DNA of 22,639 nt. It comes from a virus. Numbering within the stretch: position 1 is the first letter of the stretch; every line of letters starts with the position of its first letter. Below are positions 3,882 through 22,639 of the stretch, one piece after another. The stretch covers positions 1-22,639 of IMG/VR virus record IMGVR_UViG_3300024317_000017; one strand, 5' to 3'. The translations under genes were made by a program, and so were the position numbers. A model generated the notes under the pieces. The model saw nothing but the letters and a program-made list of their open reading frames with translations, did not search any database and was not told the DNA's origin.

Positions 3882-4475
3882 ATGAATGTATTTGACCCAT
3901 TTGGAATTTTCTCAACGAAGAAGACACCTAATCCTGCTGACGCGGCCAATGCGGAATTAAATAAAATACCAGGCGCTACGTCTCCTTATTACGATCCGTA
4001 TATTAATGCAGGAAAAGAAGCCTTAGGTACATTAAAAGATGAATATGGTAATTTACTGCAAGATCCTGGTTCAATTTATGATCGCTTAGGAAAAGGATAC
4101 AAAGAATCCCCTGGATATCAATTTGCACTAAAACAAGCATTAGGCGCAGGGCAAAATGCATCTGCCGCAGGTGGGATGTTAGGAACACCTGCCGATCAAC
4201 AACAACAAATGGGATTAGCGCAAGATGTCGCATCCAAAGATTTTCAGAAATATCTCGATAGCGTGACAGGTCTTTATGGAAAAGGATTATCAGGAACCGA
4301 AGGGCTTAATAAACAGGGATTTGATGCATCCACTGAATATGGGAAAATGCTTGCTGATATATTTGGTCAAAAGAGCTCAAATATATACCAAGGAACGGCT
4401 GGACAAAATGCAGCGGGTGGCAATAAACAAGCACAGTTAATGCAAATGATAAGTACGTTCCTGCCTTTTTACTAG
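3882..4475 (+). CDS. gp7-like DNA transfer / ejection protein
   Basis: A 197-residue protein rich in Gly, Ala and Gln, with a helical middle and a C-terminal repeat-like region around residues 115-165 (LDSVTGLYGKGLSG, then GFDASTEYGKML). This character is common in phage DNA transfer proteins of the P22 gp7 type, which are 200-230 residues long and leave the virion with the DNA. In P22 the order gp7, gp20, gp16 follows the tail hub genes, and the same place holds here. The family assignment is from sequence texture and gene order, not from a catalytic motif. The ribosome site AAGGAG lies 8 bases before the ATG. Confidence 0.65.
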   Translation: MNVFDPFGIFSTKKTPNPADAANAELNKIPGATSPYYDPYINAGKEALGTLKDEYGNLLQDPGSIYDRLGKGYKESPGYQFALKQALGAGQNASAAGGMLGTPADQQQQMGLAQDVASKDFQKYLDSVTGLYGKGLSGTEGLNKQGFDASTEYGKMLADIFGQKSSNIYQGTAGQNAAGGNKQAQLMQMISTFLPFY

Positions 4476-15625: not shown

Positions 15626-15696
15626 ACACTAATAGCTTAATAGGTAGAGTTCTAGATATTTTTCTGGCGATGTGGGTTCGAATCCCACTTAGTGTT
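15626..15696 (+). tRNA. tRNA-like gene, anticodon undetermined
   Basis: A cloverleaf can be drawn. The acceptor stem ACACTAA/TTAGTGT (15626-15632 with 15689-15695) is perfect. The D stem GCTT/GAGT has two G-T pairs and the loop AATAGGTA contains GG. The T arm GTGGG-TTCGAAT-CCCAC (15672-15688) is canonical. The anticodon stem CTAGA/TCTGG (15652-15656 with 15663-15667, one G-T pair) encloses only six bases, TATTTT. If the closing A-T pair opens, the loop has eight bases. A normal seven-base loop cannot be formed, so the decoded codon is unclear. CCA is not encoded. It lies between the last fibre gene and the lysis genes. It may be a degenerate tRNA or an unusual decoder. Confidence 0.65.
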
Positions 15697-15913: not shown

Positions 15914-15930
15914 AATACCCGGGGGGTATT
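15914..15930. promoter_or_regulatory. Perfect hairpin in front of the endolysin
   Basis: AATACCC (15914-15920) and GGGTATT (15924-15930) form a perfect 7-bp inverted repeat with the loop GGG. The run of six G is striking in this AT-rich genome and lies eight bases before an in-frame ATG at 15935. A weak promoter-like pair (TTGCAT 15872-15877, 16-base spacer, TATGTT 15894-15899) lies just upstream. There is no T run, so it is not a clear terminator. It could be an operator or an RNA element controlling a longer endolysin start. Confidence 0.45.
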
Positions 15931-19852: not shown

Positions 19853-20518
19853 TTAATTCTCCTCATTATCGTAGTTATTAATTTTATGGATTATCTCATT
19901 TAAATCATTATCAATATGCAAAGTATCAAACATTCCCATAGAGGACTTTGCCATATGAACGCCATCATTATTAGTCAAAAATTTATATTCTCCATCAATA
20001 ACAAGGGAATGAAAAACATAAGTAAATTTCCCTTCTATGGTTACATTTTGGTCTATCATTTTACCGATAGTTTTTGGTTTATAAGTGCCATGTGTATCTA
20101 TTTCGGTATGCATCATAACAAAGCAAAATAAATCATCACGTAATAGGCTAATGGCTTCAAAAACATGAAATGCATTGACACCAATATCAGTGAATTTTTG
20201 ATATCCTTTTTCATTCGCTTTTCGCATGAAAGAATTCATAAAAGTATATCCAAAGTCATCAATAACAAGGTATTTAATATCTAATCGTTTTTCATTAACT
20301 AATTTTATTAGTCGAAGAATAGATGAGGAATTATCGGTTGAATAGTAATTACCTGTTAATCCGTCAGGGCTTAGATTAGAATATTTTTTCTTCGATCCCC
20401 TGAATGGTAATGGCTTTCCAATAACATTAATAATCAATGTTTCTTGACAGGGAAGATTTCTAATGCTTGTTGATTTTCCAGTTCCTGATTCGCCTAAAAT
20501 CAATATTGAATTACTCAT
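19853..20518 (-). CDS. Sak4-like RecA-fold ATPase (AAA_24 type)
   Basis: A 221-residue P-loop ATPase. Walker A is GESGTGKST at 9-17, right at the N-terminus. Walker B is YLVIDD at 83-88, followed by the FGYTFMNSF segment typical of the phage AAA_24 / Sak4 group. A sensor-like hydrophobic strand (LFCFVMMHTEID) comes after a long helix. Sak4-type proteins are phage-encoded, RecA-core annealing/recombination proteins that work with an SSB. The neighbours here (SSB-like protein and Fe-S nuclease) fit that well. GGAG lies nine bases before its ATG. A more general AAA role is possible. Confidence 0.78.
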   Translation of the reverse strand: MSNSILILGESGTGKSTSIRNLPCQETLIINVIGKPLPFRGSKKKYSNLSPDGLTGNYYSTDNSSSILRLIKLVNEKRLDIKYLVIDDFGYTFMNSFMRKANEKGYQKFTDIGVNAFHVFEAISLLRDDLFCFVMMHTEIDTHGTYKPKTIGKMIDQNVTIEGKFTYVFHSLVIDGEYKFLTNNDGVHMAKSSMGMFDTLHIDNDLNEIIHKINNYDNEEN

Positions 20519-20530
20519 TTTATTGTCTCC

Positions 20531-20992
20531 TTACACATTTAACGTCAATGTTATTGCTGGTTTTGAGTAATCTAAGATTAAAAAAGATTCAACTAAATCT
20601 TGATCTACGGTCGAAGCATATGCTCTAATAGTCTCAAGCACTTTCTTATCGACACGATAGCTAATTGATTTTTTAATTGGATTGAACTCTTTAGATAACT
20701 GGGATTGGACTATTTCATATTCTTTAGTATCAACCTTATATAAGGAAGGCGTTTTAACTTTTACTTTAAATTTTCCAACCACTCTAGTCTGTTCACCGTC
20801 ATGAACAACAGAGGTGACATGTCCTTTTTCGTCATAATTAGCTAGTTTCATATCCGAAACTATTTTGCGTTCTACACGCTCCTTAATCATCTTTAGCTCA
20901 GCTATTTGATAATTAATCGTATTCAGATTAGTAATATCTTCAATCAATCGTTCTTCAGCAACGATATTCTCATCTATATCAAATTCAAACAT
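20531..20992 (-). CDS. Helical protein of the recombination operon, unknown function
   Basis: A 153-residue protein starting at ATG 20992 (MFEFDIDENIV), chosen because AAAAGGTGAAG lies directly upstream. A further in-frame start at 21049 has no such signal and would fall at the transcription start region. Residues 15-60 form a charged helical stretch (EERLIEDITNLN, ELKMIKERVERKIVSDMK), then a beta region (GKFKVKVKTPSLYKVD), then helices and a closing SKPAITLTLNV. No motif of a known enzyme was found. As first gene of the leftward operon, ahead of the Sak4-like ATPase, it may help loading or act as an accessory recombination factor. Confidence 0.6.
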   Translation of the reverse strand: MFEFDIDENIVAEERLIEDITNLNTINYQIAELKMIKERVERKIVSDMKLANYDEKGHVTSVVHDGEQTRVVGKFKVKVKTPSLYKVDTKEYEIVQSQLSKEFNPIKKSISYRVDKKVLETIRAYASTVDQDLVESFLILDYSKPAITLTLNV

Positions 20993-21039
20993 TTCTTCAC
21001 CTTTTAGTGTATGTACTCGGCGGATTTGCCGTAAGAAGA

Positions 21040-21068
21040 ATAATAACAAAGTGATTGACTAAAGTCAA
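21040..21068 (-). promoter_or_regulatory. Leftward sigma70 promoter of the recombination operon
   Basis: On the - strand, TTGACT (21068-21063), a 17-base spacer, and TATTAT (21045-21040). Both boxes match the consensus at five of six positions. Transcription would start near 21033 and give a 40-base leader to the ATG at 20992. The leader can form a small hairpin, CGGC/GCCG (21018-21031). Confidence 0.75.
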
Positions 21069-21083
21069 GTAATTTTATACACT
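21055..21083 (+). promoter_or_regulatory. Rightward sigma70 promoter of the regulator operon
   Basis: TTGACT (21055-21060), 17-base spacer, TACACT (21078-21083). It lies 23 bases before the ATG of the Cro-like gene, with AGGGGG as ribosome site. Its -35 box and that of the leftward promoter are the two halves of the palindrome TTGACT-AA-AGTCAA (21055-21068), a likely operator. Confidence 0.75.
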
Positions 21084-21105
21084 ATTTTTAATTAGGGGGA
21101 TAATA

Positions 21106-21465
21106 ATGACGATTGAAGAATTAAAAGCAATGTTTGCAAATGGCAATGATTTTCAAATTAGAACGGGTATACCGCATACGAGTTGGCATAATTGGAAGAG
21201 AATGGGTTATATTCCTATTAGATCGCAAATTCGATTAGAGTCGATCACAGGGGGTGAATTAAAAGCTGATTTAGGTCATGTTCCAGAGGAGCCTGTAAAG
21301 ATTAAAGATAAACCGCTCTTTGAATTATCTTCTACAGCACATTTATTTGAAGATTTTATTAATTCGAAATCGATGCAAAATTTGTTTACTCACGTAAGCC
21401 GAGATTACATCAATGAGCAAATAAATTGGATGTTAAGAAAACTTAAAATTTTACGTATAAAATAA
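21106..21465 (+). CDS. Cro/YdaS-like repressor with C-terminal extension
   Basis: A 119-residue DNA-binding protein. The first 55 residues resemble the Cro/YdaS helix-turn-helix type: MTIEELKAMFANGNDFQIRT as first helix region, then PHTSWHNWKRMGYIPIRSQI, where W-x-x-W and IP..Q..LE mark the recognition part, and RLESITGGELKADL after it. The following 60 residues are helical (LFEDFINSKSMQNLF and INEQINWMLRKLKILR) and may mediate dimerisation. It is expressed from the promoter whose -35 box lies in a palindrome shared with the leftward promoter. It is likely to control both. Exact family is not certain. Confidence 0.75.
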   Translation: MTIEELKAMFANGNDFQIRTGIPHTSWHNWKRMGYIPIRSQIRLESITGGELKADLGHVPEEPVKIKDKPLFELSSTAHLFEDFINSKSMQNLFTHVSRDYINEQINWMLRKLKILRIK

Positions 21466-21479
21466 CTTAAGGAAAAAGG

Positions 21480-21662
21480 ATGAACGAGGACGAAAAAAAC
21501 AGCCGTATTAAAACTGCCATTATATCTAATTTATGCATTTACAATGGGATGGTTTTGAGTCCTTATATCATTGAAGAAATAGCTACGGAACTTGTGAAAT
21601 GTGTTTTAGATCTTAAGCAATTTAAAATGGATGGAGAAATTAAAAATGAATCCCCGAACTAA
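21480..21662 (+). CDS. Small hypothetical early protein
   Basis: A 60-residue protein beginning 14 bases after the repressor gene, with AAGGAAAAAGG directly upstream. Residues 8-45 look like two short helices (RIKTAIISNLCIY; YIIEEIATELVKCVLDL), the ends are charged. No known motif. It overlaps the next gene by 17 bases and is probably co-transcribed with the repressor. Confidence 0.55.
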   Translation: MNEDEKNSRIKTAIISNLCIYNGMVLSPYIIEEIATELVKCVLDLKQFKMDGEIKNESPN

Positions 21663-21885
21663 ACGAAAAGTAATACAATCCGTTGGTTTTTTTCTAGCTT
21701 TTTCTTTTGCTACATTATTGGTTTATTGTATTGTATCCGCTGTTATTTTGGATGATGAGGATGAAATGAGTTTAAGTCAATATGGTCAAATGGTTGATTT
21801 AGATGAATATGATATGGACGATCCTACCGAAGAGGAAGTAAGGATTTATGAAGAAAAACCAATCTCTGGCGGGGAAGAAATATAA
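21646..21885 (+). CDS. Small membrane protein with acidic cytoplasmic or periplasmic tail
   Basis: A 79-residue protein from ATG 21646, chosen because TGGAGAAAT lies nine bases upstream; an in-frame ATG at 21631 lacks a ribosome site. A basic N-terminus (NPRTKRK) leads into one membrane segment (about residues 9-33: VIQSVGFFLAFSFATLLVYC), followed by a strongly acidic tail (LDDEDEMS, YDMDDPTEEEV). Such single-pass proteins expressed next to a repressor can serve in superinfection exclusion or host membrane effects, but no family is recognised. The tail could sit on either side of the membrane; the basic N-terminus favours the inside. Confidence 0.6.
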   Translation: MNPRTKRKVIQSVGFFLAFSFATLLVYCIVSAVILDDEDEMSLSQYGQMVDLDEYDMDDPTEEEVRIYEEKPISGGEEI

Positions 21886-21929
21886 TTGCTTGGTTGGCCT
21901 TGCGAGCTTAACATTTCTACCAAGGGACG

Positions 21930-21945
21930 TCTTTAATATTAAAGA
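21930..21945. promoter_or_regulatory. 16-bp perfect palindrome, candidate operator
   Basis: TCTTTAATATTAAAGA reads the same on both strands and covers the -10 box of the leftward promoter at 21936-21964. A repressor dimer bound here would block that promoter. A looser inverted repeat CTTGGT/ACCAAG (21889-21894 with 21919-21924) lies just to the left, after the stop codon of the membrane protein gene. Confidence 0.5.
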
Positions 21946-21964
21946 GATATTTATCTAGTGTCAA
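21936..21964 (-). promoter_or_regulatory. Leftward sigma70 promoter, consensus -35
   Basis: On the - strand: TTGACA (21964-21959), 17-base spacer, TAATAT (21941-21936). The -35 is a perfect consensus. The -10 lies inside a perfect 16-bp palindrome. Transcripts would run left from about 21929 across the three small regulator genes in antisense, toward the recombination operon. Confidence 0.6.
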
Positions 21965-21965
21965 C

Positions 21966-21988
21966 AAAAAAGCCCCGTACAGGGGCTT
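21966..21988 (-). terminator. Intrinsic terminator, leftward
   Basis: AAGCCCC/GGGGCTT (21970-21976 with 21982-21988) with a five-base loop forms a 7-bp stem. On the - strand it is followed by a run giving six T in total (21971-21966). On the + strand the bases after the stem are AATCGC, so it is not an efficient rightward terminator, although some bidirectional activity is possible. Confidence 0.75.
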
Positions 21989-22049
21989 AATCGCATCTCA
22001 GGAGTAATTTCTTGCGTAAATTACAGGCGGTATTATATCCACGGATTCA

Positions 22050-22078
22050 TTGAATGTATAGGGTTTTTAGATTAAGAT
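22050..22078 (+). promoter_or_regulatory. Candidate rightward promoter
   Basis: TTGAAT (22050-22055), 17-base spacer, TAAGAT (22073-22078); each box matches four of six consensus bases. The long inverted repeat at 22079-22114 begins directly after the -10 and would overlap the start site, as an operator might. It would drive the small gene at 22162 and the operon at 22300. Confidence 0.35.
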
Positions 22079-22161
22079 CTGACACAAGGTAATATCGAGT
22101 TACCACTGTGTCAGTGCGCGAGGCGCTTTGGCTATTTCAACGCATAAAAGGTGCGTAAAAT

Positions 22162-22260
22162 ATGAACAAAAGTATATCAAGATTTAATTTAATATGCAAT
22201 AGTAGGCGTTATGAATTTTTTAGATGGCCACTCCGGGCCGACCCTTTAGTTCTGAGTTAA
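22162..22260 (+). CDS. Possible leader peptide (32 residues)
   Basis: A short frame from ATG 22162 to TAA 22260 with AAAAGGTG ten bases upstream, a good ribosome site that sits in the loop of the hairpin ACGCA-TAAAAGG-TGCGT (22140-22156). The product (MNKSISRFNLICNSRRYEFF and WPLRADPLVLS) is basic and of no known family. The end of the frame carries two more inverted repeats (GGCC/GGCC at 22226-22239; CCTTTA/TAAAGG at 22243-22263). It may be a translated leader regulating the operon behind it rather than a working protein. Confidence 0.4.
   Translation: MNKSISRFNLICNSRRYEFFRWPLRADPLVLS
22171..22199 (-). promoter_or_regulatory. Candidate leftward promoter of the structured RNA
   Basis: On the - strand: TTGCAT (22199-22194), 17-base spacer, TATACT (22176-22171), with TG one base before the -10 (extended -10). 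The -35 is weak (three of six), the -10 is good (five of six). The start would be near 22164. Confidence 0.42.
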
Positions 22261-22299
22261 AGGTTTACATCATGCACAACAAGAGAGGACAATTATACC

Positions 22300-22521
22300 A
22301 TGAATGACAAATATTTGTATAATAAATATTTTGCTTTTTTAATGAATGAGATAAAGCGGTGTTCTAACAAACCCTTCCGTTACAACGAAATAAACGATTT
22401 TATAAATTCTCCTCTTGGCCAAAAAGGTTATCATCAATTCTGTTCGCTCGAAACTTTTCAAAAAAGAGGCACTAATACATTTCAACATATTTCAGAAGTT
22501 TTAAATGGAGTTAGCTTATGA
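22300..22521 (+). CDS. Hypothetical small protein before the replication gene
   Basis: A 73-residue soluble protein (NDKYLYNKYFAFLMNEIKRC, then NEINDFINSPLGQKGYHQF) with mixed helical character and many aromatic residues. GAGAGGA lies ten bases upstream of ATG 22300. Its stop overlaps the next start (ATGA), so both are co-translated. No known motif is seen. By position it may be an accessory factor of replication initiation. Confidence 0.6.
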   Translation: MNDKYLYNKYFAFLMNEIKRCSNKPFRYNEINDFINSPLGQKGYHQFCSLETFQKRGTNTFQHISEVLNGVSL

Positions 22522-22639
22522 TTAATAATATAGAAAAATTTGAAGGTTCTTTTTCCAGGGAAGAATCGGGATGCACCATTATGCTCAATCAAACAATTCA
22601 GTTTATCAAGGATGTAGATGTTCTAGGATTGTATGTTTA
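22518..22639 (+). CDS. Probable HTH replication/DNA-binding protein, N-terminal part
   Basis: The reading frame starts at ATG 22518, overlapping the previous stop, and is still open at the end of the window (about 40 codons). The visible part (EKFEGSFSREESGCTIMLNQ, then FIKDVDVLGLYV) resembles the beginning of phage replication initiation or DnaD-type proteins, in which such a DVxxLGLYxYL segment opens the winged-helix domain. The rest lies outside, so the call depends on this similarity and on the operon position. Confidence 0.45.
   Translation, partial: MINNIEKFEGSFSREESGCTIMLNQTIQFIKDVDVLGLYV

Follow-up and report, generated by a model that had tools for sequence, protein, structure and literature searches.

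Plasmid ColE1 encodes RNA I and RNA II, perfectly complementary RNAs that lie by the replication functions, form three hairpins, and are transcribed from promoters that face each other at a distance of about 100 bp. A loop whose partner is its own complement is free to drift, as plasmid incompatibility RNAs illustrate; a seed directed at a fixed target is not. Antisense control of replication is textbook matter for plasmids and, to our knowledge, scarcely documented for phages, the nearest cases being OOP RNA and the RNA-based origins of mycobacteriophages. In the CopA system of plasmids, a constitutive antisense RNA prevents the leader peptide Tap, coupled to RepA, from being translated (PMC12779154). 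In phage lambda, replication is tuned through the promoter pO, which is convergent with pR (PMC3985674). The phage RNA C4 works around a ribosome site, probably through its loops (PMC12197685).

The window considered here is an IMG/VR virus record of 22,639 bases with lambdoid gene order and a structured element near its right end. The window contains leftward recombination genes (Sak4-like at 19853-20518, an SSB-like protein, and a Cas4-type exonuclease) and a rightward series of a Cro-like gene, two small ORFs, the structured gap, a 73-aa ORF, and the start of an initiator-like gene. The genes that frame the element are:

21106-21465, + strand: Cro-like regulator, first gene of the rightward operon (phrog_409 transcriptional regulator, E 2e-4)
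22300-22521, + strand: small ORF of 73 aa that separates the element from the replication gene (ORF list)
22518-22639, + strand: beginning of a replication-initiator-like gene that runs off the contig (22523-22580 matches, as DNA, the first part of the initiator gene of the related locus L005)

The L005 initiator protein matches PHROG replication initiation proteins; for the 73-aa ORF that begins at 22300, neither a family search nor a search for relatives returned a match. The Cro-like gene is adjoined by an uncharacterised leftward protein (20531-21049, - strand), which occupies the position where a CI repressor would be expected and has homologues in about 38 Sak4-bearing loci. A tRNA gene (15626-15696, + strand; Rfam tRNA, 52 bits) lies elsewhere in the window, between tail-like ORFs and the ORF at 15929.

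The initial annotation of this DNA, made from the letters alone, described five hairpins, a leftward extended -10 promoter candidate, and a leftward intrinsic terminator in a stretch without a long reading frame. Hairpins, terminator, and extended -10 are all present there, and no ORF of at least 50 aa overlaps the structured stretch. The minus strand of 21960-22210 folds with -60 kcal/mol and a z-score of -4.5, equalled or bettered by 0 of 200 shuffles, and the plus strand with a z-score of -3.1; the core at 22080-22165 gives -3.5 on the minus strand versus -2.6 on the plus strand, and the 117 nt downstream give -3.1. The parts of the predicted leftward RNA are:

22080-22165, - strand: conserved three-hairpin core of the leftward RNA (covariance models R1 and R2; 26 distinct members; covariation equalled in 0 of 500 shuffles)
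22133-22162, - strand: hairpin A, 11 bp with one bulge and the 7-nt loop CCTTTTA at 22145-22151 (MFE fold)
22116-22126, - strand: hairpin B, GCGC-CTC-GCGC (conservation and covariation)
22079-22114, - strand: hairpin C, a long stem with a bulge, pairing kept and sequence variable (fold and covariation)
21970-21988, - strand: intrinsic terminator AAGCCCC(TGTAC)GGGGCTT-TTTT with a T run to 21964, the sole leftward terminator in 20400-22639
21963-22166, - strand: predicted leftward transcript of about 200 nt, starting at about 22164-22166 and ending past the terminator (promoter and terminator positions)

Hairpins A, B, and C are kept in related phages together with the leftward promoter; no counterpart of the two weaker hairpins that separate hairpin C from the terminator was detected in other members, and the terminator belongs to the window only, the other members having no leftward intrinsic terminator near the element.

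Relatives were gathered by Sak4 searches of IMG/VR, which led to phages with the same layout, and BLASTN revealed syntenic similarity at about 1 kb downstream of the Cro-like gene. A structural pattern was applied first, followed by covariance model R1, built from eight members. R1 recovered members outside its seed set (E 6e-13 to 1.5e-4), with L026 at E 0.015 under R1 and 4e-4 under model R2, and two DNA-pattern scans added more members. The family comprises 26 distinct members, all from uncultivated phages, with a single copy per genome in the 14 records checked. The element is on the leftward strand in every member found beside Sak4, and a homologue of the Cro-like gene is present on the opposite strand in 20/20 non-window members of the first set.

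The family is a structured RNA family absent from Rfam: the window and ten related loci gave no match at the gathering score, and relaxed searches returned nothing relevant for the window at E<=10 or for seven members at E<=5, in line with the suggestion that no described RNA family is represented here. Locus L105 contains, at 3904-4274, a sub-threshold match to the Rfam cspA thermoregulator (33 bits; gathering score 78), with a weaker one in L120, and the L105 phage encodes cold-shock-like proteins. BLASTN of the region against named phages gave short chance matches only, an exact-hairpin scan of IMG/VR gave no match, and a Sak4 protein scan of genome contigs gave distant matches only; no named phage or plasmid with the Cro-like gene was found, nor any DNA near-identical to L007 in phages and plasmids.

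When the eight seeds are folded singly, each forms hairpin A with 9-11 bp and a 6-7-nt loop, hairpin B with 4 bp and a triloop (consensus GNGC-NNC-GCNC), and hairpin C with 13-17 bp. Compensatory changes in homologues, the check set in advance for the structure, were found. In an alignment of 20 sequences, 87.8% of pair cells are paired and both-side changes number 101 versus 36 in shuffles (0/500); with 26 sequences, 92.7% of cells hold standard pairs versus 34-40% in slid controls, the paired fraction being somewhat inflated because the alignments were fitted to the covariance model, and both-side changes rise to 165 versus 53 in shuffles (0/500). RNAalifold's own prediction from the first alignment contains hairpins B and C with 13 covarying pairs; helix A was not recovered. 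In hairpin B, three of the four pairs are invariant, the remaining pair covaries among CG, GC, UA, and AU, and the loop is mostly UAC.

Pair cells that read G-U on the leftward strand outnumber those that read A-C by 53 to 10 (p 3e-8, from cells that are non-independent because the sequences are related). These counts identify the leftward strand, as first proposed, as the one under structural selection. A rightward-strand reading drawn early in the analysis from BLASTN synteny was dropped after both strands had been folded and the G-U and A-C cells counted.

Promoters were sought by a positional scan over 21 members, using a sigma70 matrix with hexamer frequencies from general knowledge. The sites in the window are:

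22171-22176, - strand: predicted leftward -10 hexamer TATACT, with TGA before the hexamer in the extended -10 TGATATACT (sequence and positional scan)
22194-22199, - strand: predicted leftward -35 hexamer TTGCAT, spacer 17 (sequence)
22050-22055, + strand: rightward -35-like TTGAAT, TTGATC in many members (positional scan)
22073-22078, + strand: rightward -10-like TAAGAT, spacer 17, at the outer end of hairpin C (positional scan)

The two sites are the top peaks of the scan, one per direction. At the leftward peak the -10 ends 4-5 nt before the element, 18/21 members are above threshold, and the mean score is 7.2 versus a profile mean of -0.8. The leftward promoter candidate of the initial annotation is thereby found at a fixed position across the family, and TTGCAT with its 17-nt spacer adds a -35 to it. 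The rightward peak, TTGATC-17-TARGAT at the outer end of hairpin C, is present in 16/21. In L145 and L198, which lack a promoter beside the core, hairpin A is tandemly duplicated (about 2842-2979 and 2675-2810, respectively), and promoter and ATG precede the outer copy. The two predicted promoters appear to face each other across the element with about 80-90 bp between start sites, an arrangement that would make the two transcripts complementary along all three hairpins, about 80 nt.

The rightward site, which precedes the structure, and the good fold of the plus strand would suit a structure that belongs to the rightward leader RNA (riboswitch-like or put-like), with no leftward RNA made. Set against the 53:10 ratio of G-U to A-C on the leftward strand and the conserved leftward promoter, such an arrangement seems remote. 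Attenuation was considered as well, and the hypothesis was dropped because no conserved rightward terminator lies between the element and the genes. The conserved converging promoters also raise the prospect that leftward transcription alone matters, by interference that tunes transcription of the replication region; in lambda, pO lowers pR transcription and affects replication from ori-lambda (PMC3985674). Interference would work without any RNA structure, yet three hairpins show strong covariation on one strand, and we regard it as very unlikely to be the whole explanation.

Variation within the structure bears on how the RNA may act. The loop of hairpin A is distinct in 20/20 members compared and carries 0.35 bits per position, versus 1.6 in helix B; the loop of hairpin C carries 0.43 bits, so that the A and C loops are the most variable parts. 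A YUNR motif is present in 11/20 A loops versus 6.6 from shuffles (p 0.03). Were the RNA a trans-acting or protein-binding sRNA, with a host target or with Hfq, CsrA, or RNA polymerase as ligand, and its position opposite the leader incidental, the nearly fixed helix B would resemble a ligand site and the strong, constitutive-looking predicted promoter would fit. The variability of the A and C loops is unlike a fixed-target seed, and neither the facing rightward promoter nor the constant position before replication genes would be expected, which leaves this account unlikely. Drift in loop A beside a fixed helix B is what a self-complementary pair predicts, since both partners drift together.

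The initial annotation further held that the RNA would be complementary to the start codon of the rightward operon. The reading frame concerned is:

22162-22260, + strand: putative leader ORF (32 codons) whose ATG faces the leftward RNA's 5' end (sequence comparison)

The antisense geometry holds. The ATG is found in 20/21 members, and the frame tends to be open (median 35.5 codons; the other frames give 5 and 11.5). The excess openness weakens from codon 14, where the sequence constraints of the promoter no longer apply (p 0.08 and 0.017), and the CAT/ATG conservation could partly reflect a start-site preference of the leftward promoter. Exceptions are the short frames of L002 (13 codons), L121 (1), and L217 (6), and L145, in which the ATG stands before the outer copy of hairpin A. 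The leader stop overlaps the start of the next gene in five members (L035, L105, L101, L112, and L005), and coupling of the leader ORF to the operon is plausible. The peptide itself is not conserved among members, so the supposed start codon of the operon is likely that of a leader ORF at most; a conserved leader protein was rejected because the downstream DNA shared by L035 and L105 is read in a different frame in each. A second conserved plus-strand stretch lies 45-90 nt right of the element in most members (GGNGGGATTTTTTGCG, AGAGGGATTTTTATCATG, and variants), with TTATGAATTTTTTAGATGG at 22209-22227 as the window copy. In several members it serves as the next gene's ribosome site, and the different frames in which L035 and L105 read it indicate that it is conserved as DNA or RNA.

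The element is probably an antisense RNA encoded by the phage, a countertranscript that curbs the rightward replication operon. This reading draws on what comparison of the members brings out: a leftward three-hairpin structure, a predicted leftward promoter at hairpin A, a facing promoter-like site, and a neighbourhood of replication genes. Counting against it, the first real gene starts 75-270 nt past the 5' end of the RNA, which places its ribosome site outside the cover of the RNA.

Because of the opposed geometry, a rightward leader transcript, whether from its own promoter or from the Cro operon, would include a sequence perfectly complementary to the antisense RNA. The variable 7-nt loop A, and probably hairpin C too, would be the first to touch the complementary leader of its own phage, while the nearly fixed helix B may be a common structural or protein-binding part. 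Pairing would cover a purine-rich stretch and the ATG of the leader ORF and so block leader translation; alternatively, the leader may be cleaved (by RNase III) or terminated, or transcription affected. As a result, expression of the replication module would fall as phage copies accumulate, and a second phage of like kind would be affected by the RNA as well, in trans.

Wherever the neighbourhood is readable, the element lies between the Cro-like operon and the replication module. The genes downstream include DnaD/O-like initiators in L005, L007, and L120 and VapE-type primase-helicases in L002 and L121; the first gene block right of the element is thus either an initiator plus a DnaB-like gene or a VapE-type primase-helicase, which are unrelated kinds. 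The same RNA before unrelated replication genes implies that the RNA has been kept while the replication genes were exchanged, and suggests a site of module exchange right of the element. The location directly before replication genes would also suit hairpins that themselves serve replication, as a minus-strand single-strand initiation site or origin, or as a primer like ColE1 RNA II. T-G pairs form in single-stranded DNA too, and RNA-based prophage origins are known (PMC7157519). A promoter placed for a start at hairpin A would be superfluous for a DNA-only site, however, and these phages encode their own initiator and DnaB-like or primase-helicase proteins; a replication site of this sort is accordingly given little credence.

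Despite the lambdoid gene order, member contigs G000-G019 (<=46 kb) showed no integrase of the tyrosine or serine type, no ParA, and no S24-type repressor, an absence that is suggestive only, because most records are metagenomic fragments. A wider proposal, put forward tentatively as a possibility that we do not favour, is that the countertranscript family represents a widespread plasmid-style class of antisense RNAs in phage replication modules. It would stay in place while replication genes swap, and its hypervariable loop would set specificity groups, limiting genome copy number and excluding like phages where no integrase, ParA, or S24-type repressor is found. A conserved, covarying RNA, present in 26 phages ahead of unrelated replication genes and with predicted facing promoters, makes for a testable claim, namely that phages may use loop-specific countertranscripts to set replication and perhaps to exclude relatives; the covariance model, member set, and promoter map are supplied for direct tests.

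Compared with known systems, the locus shares with ColE1 RNA I/RNA II the three hairpins, the facing promoters, here predicted from sequence, and RNAs that would be complementary over the hairpin region. It differs in belonging to a phage with its own replication proteins and in giving no sign that the rightward RNA is a primer, and neither sequence nor Rfam searches gave a match. Provided that the leader ORF is real, the arrangement also resembles CopA/CopT-tap-repA of IncFII plasmids, where an antisense RNA lies across from a leader ORF that precedes the replication genes; the differences are three hairpins in place of the two of CopA, a leader peptide that is not conserved, coupling seen in five members only, and a phage location.

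Lambda OOP/pO (also annotated in P22) likewise combines a short leftward RNA, lambdoid gene order from a cro/cII-like operon to the initiator, and a promoter converging on rightward transcription (PMC3985674). An OOP-like predicted promoter and position are found here; a cII homologue as such was not identified. Against the lambda cII-O region, covariance model R1 scored below 2 bits with filters off, and neither P22 nor HK620 gave a match. OOP pairs as an antisense RNA with the 3' end of cII, whereas the window RNA, with its predicted end at about 21963, stops short of the upstream ORF (at least 50 aa; 21631-21885), which ends before it. Also unlike OOP, three hairpins covary here and a facing promoter is predicted at the far end. 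The element would thus stand in the place of lambda oop without sequence kinship to it.

The RNA-based prophage origins of cluster A mycobacteriophages similarly combine a noncoding RNA directed against neighbouring genes with a tie to replication (PMC7157519). They lie by parABS and without repA, whereas here there is no ParA match and initiator or primase genes follow. C4 of P1/P7 and sar of P22 are, like the predicted RNA, phage antisense RNAs on early genes (PMC12197685); their target is the antirepressor gene ant, whereas here no ant gene is present, the neighbours are replication genes, and Rfam gives no match. The likeness to C4 and P4 CI RNA drawn in the initial annotation therefore extends to the phage antisense layout and not, as far as tested with Rfam, to kinship; closer working analogues would be RNA I, CopA, and lambda pO/oop.
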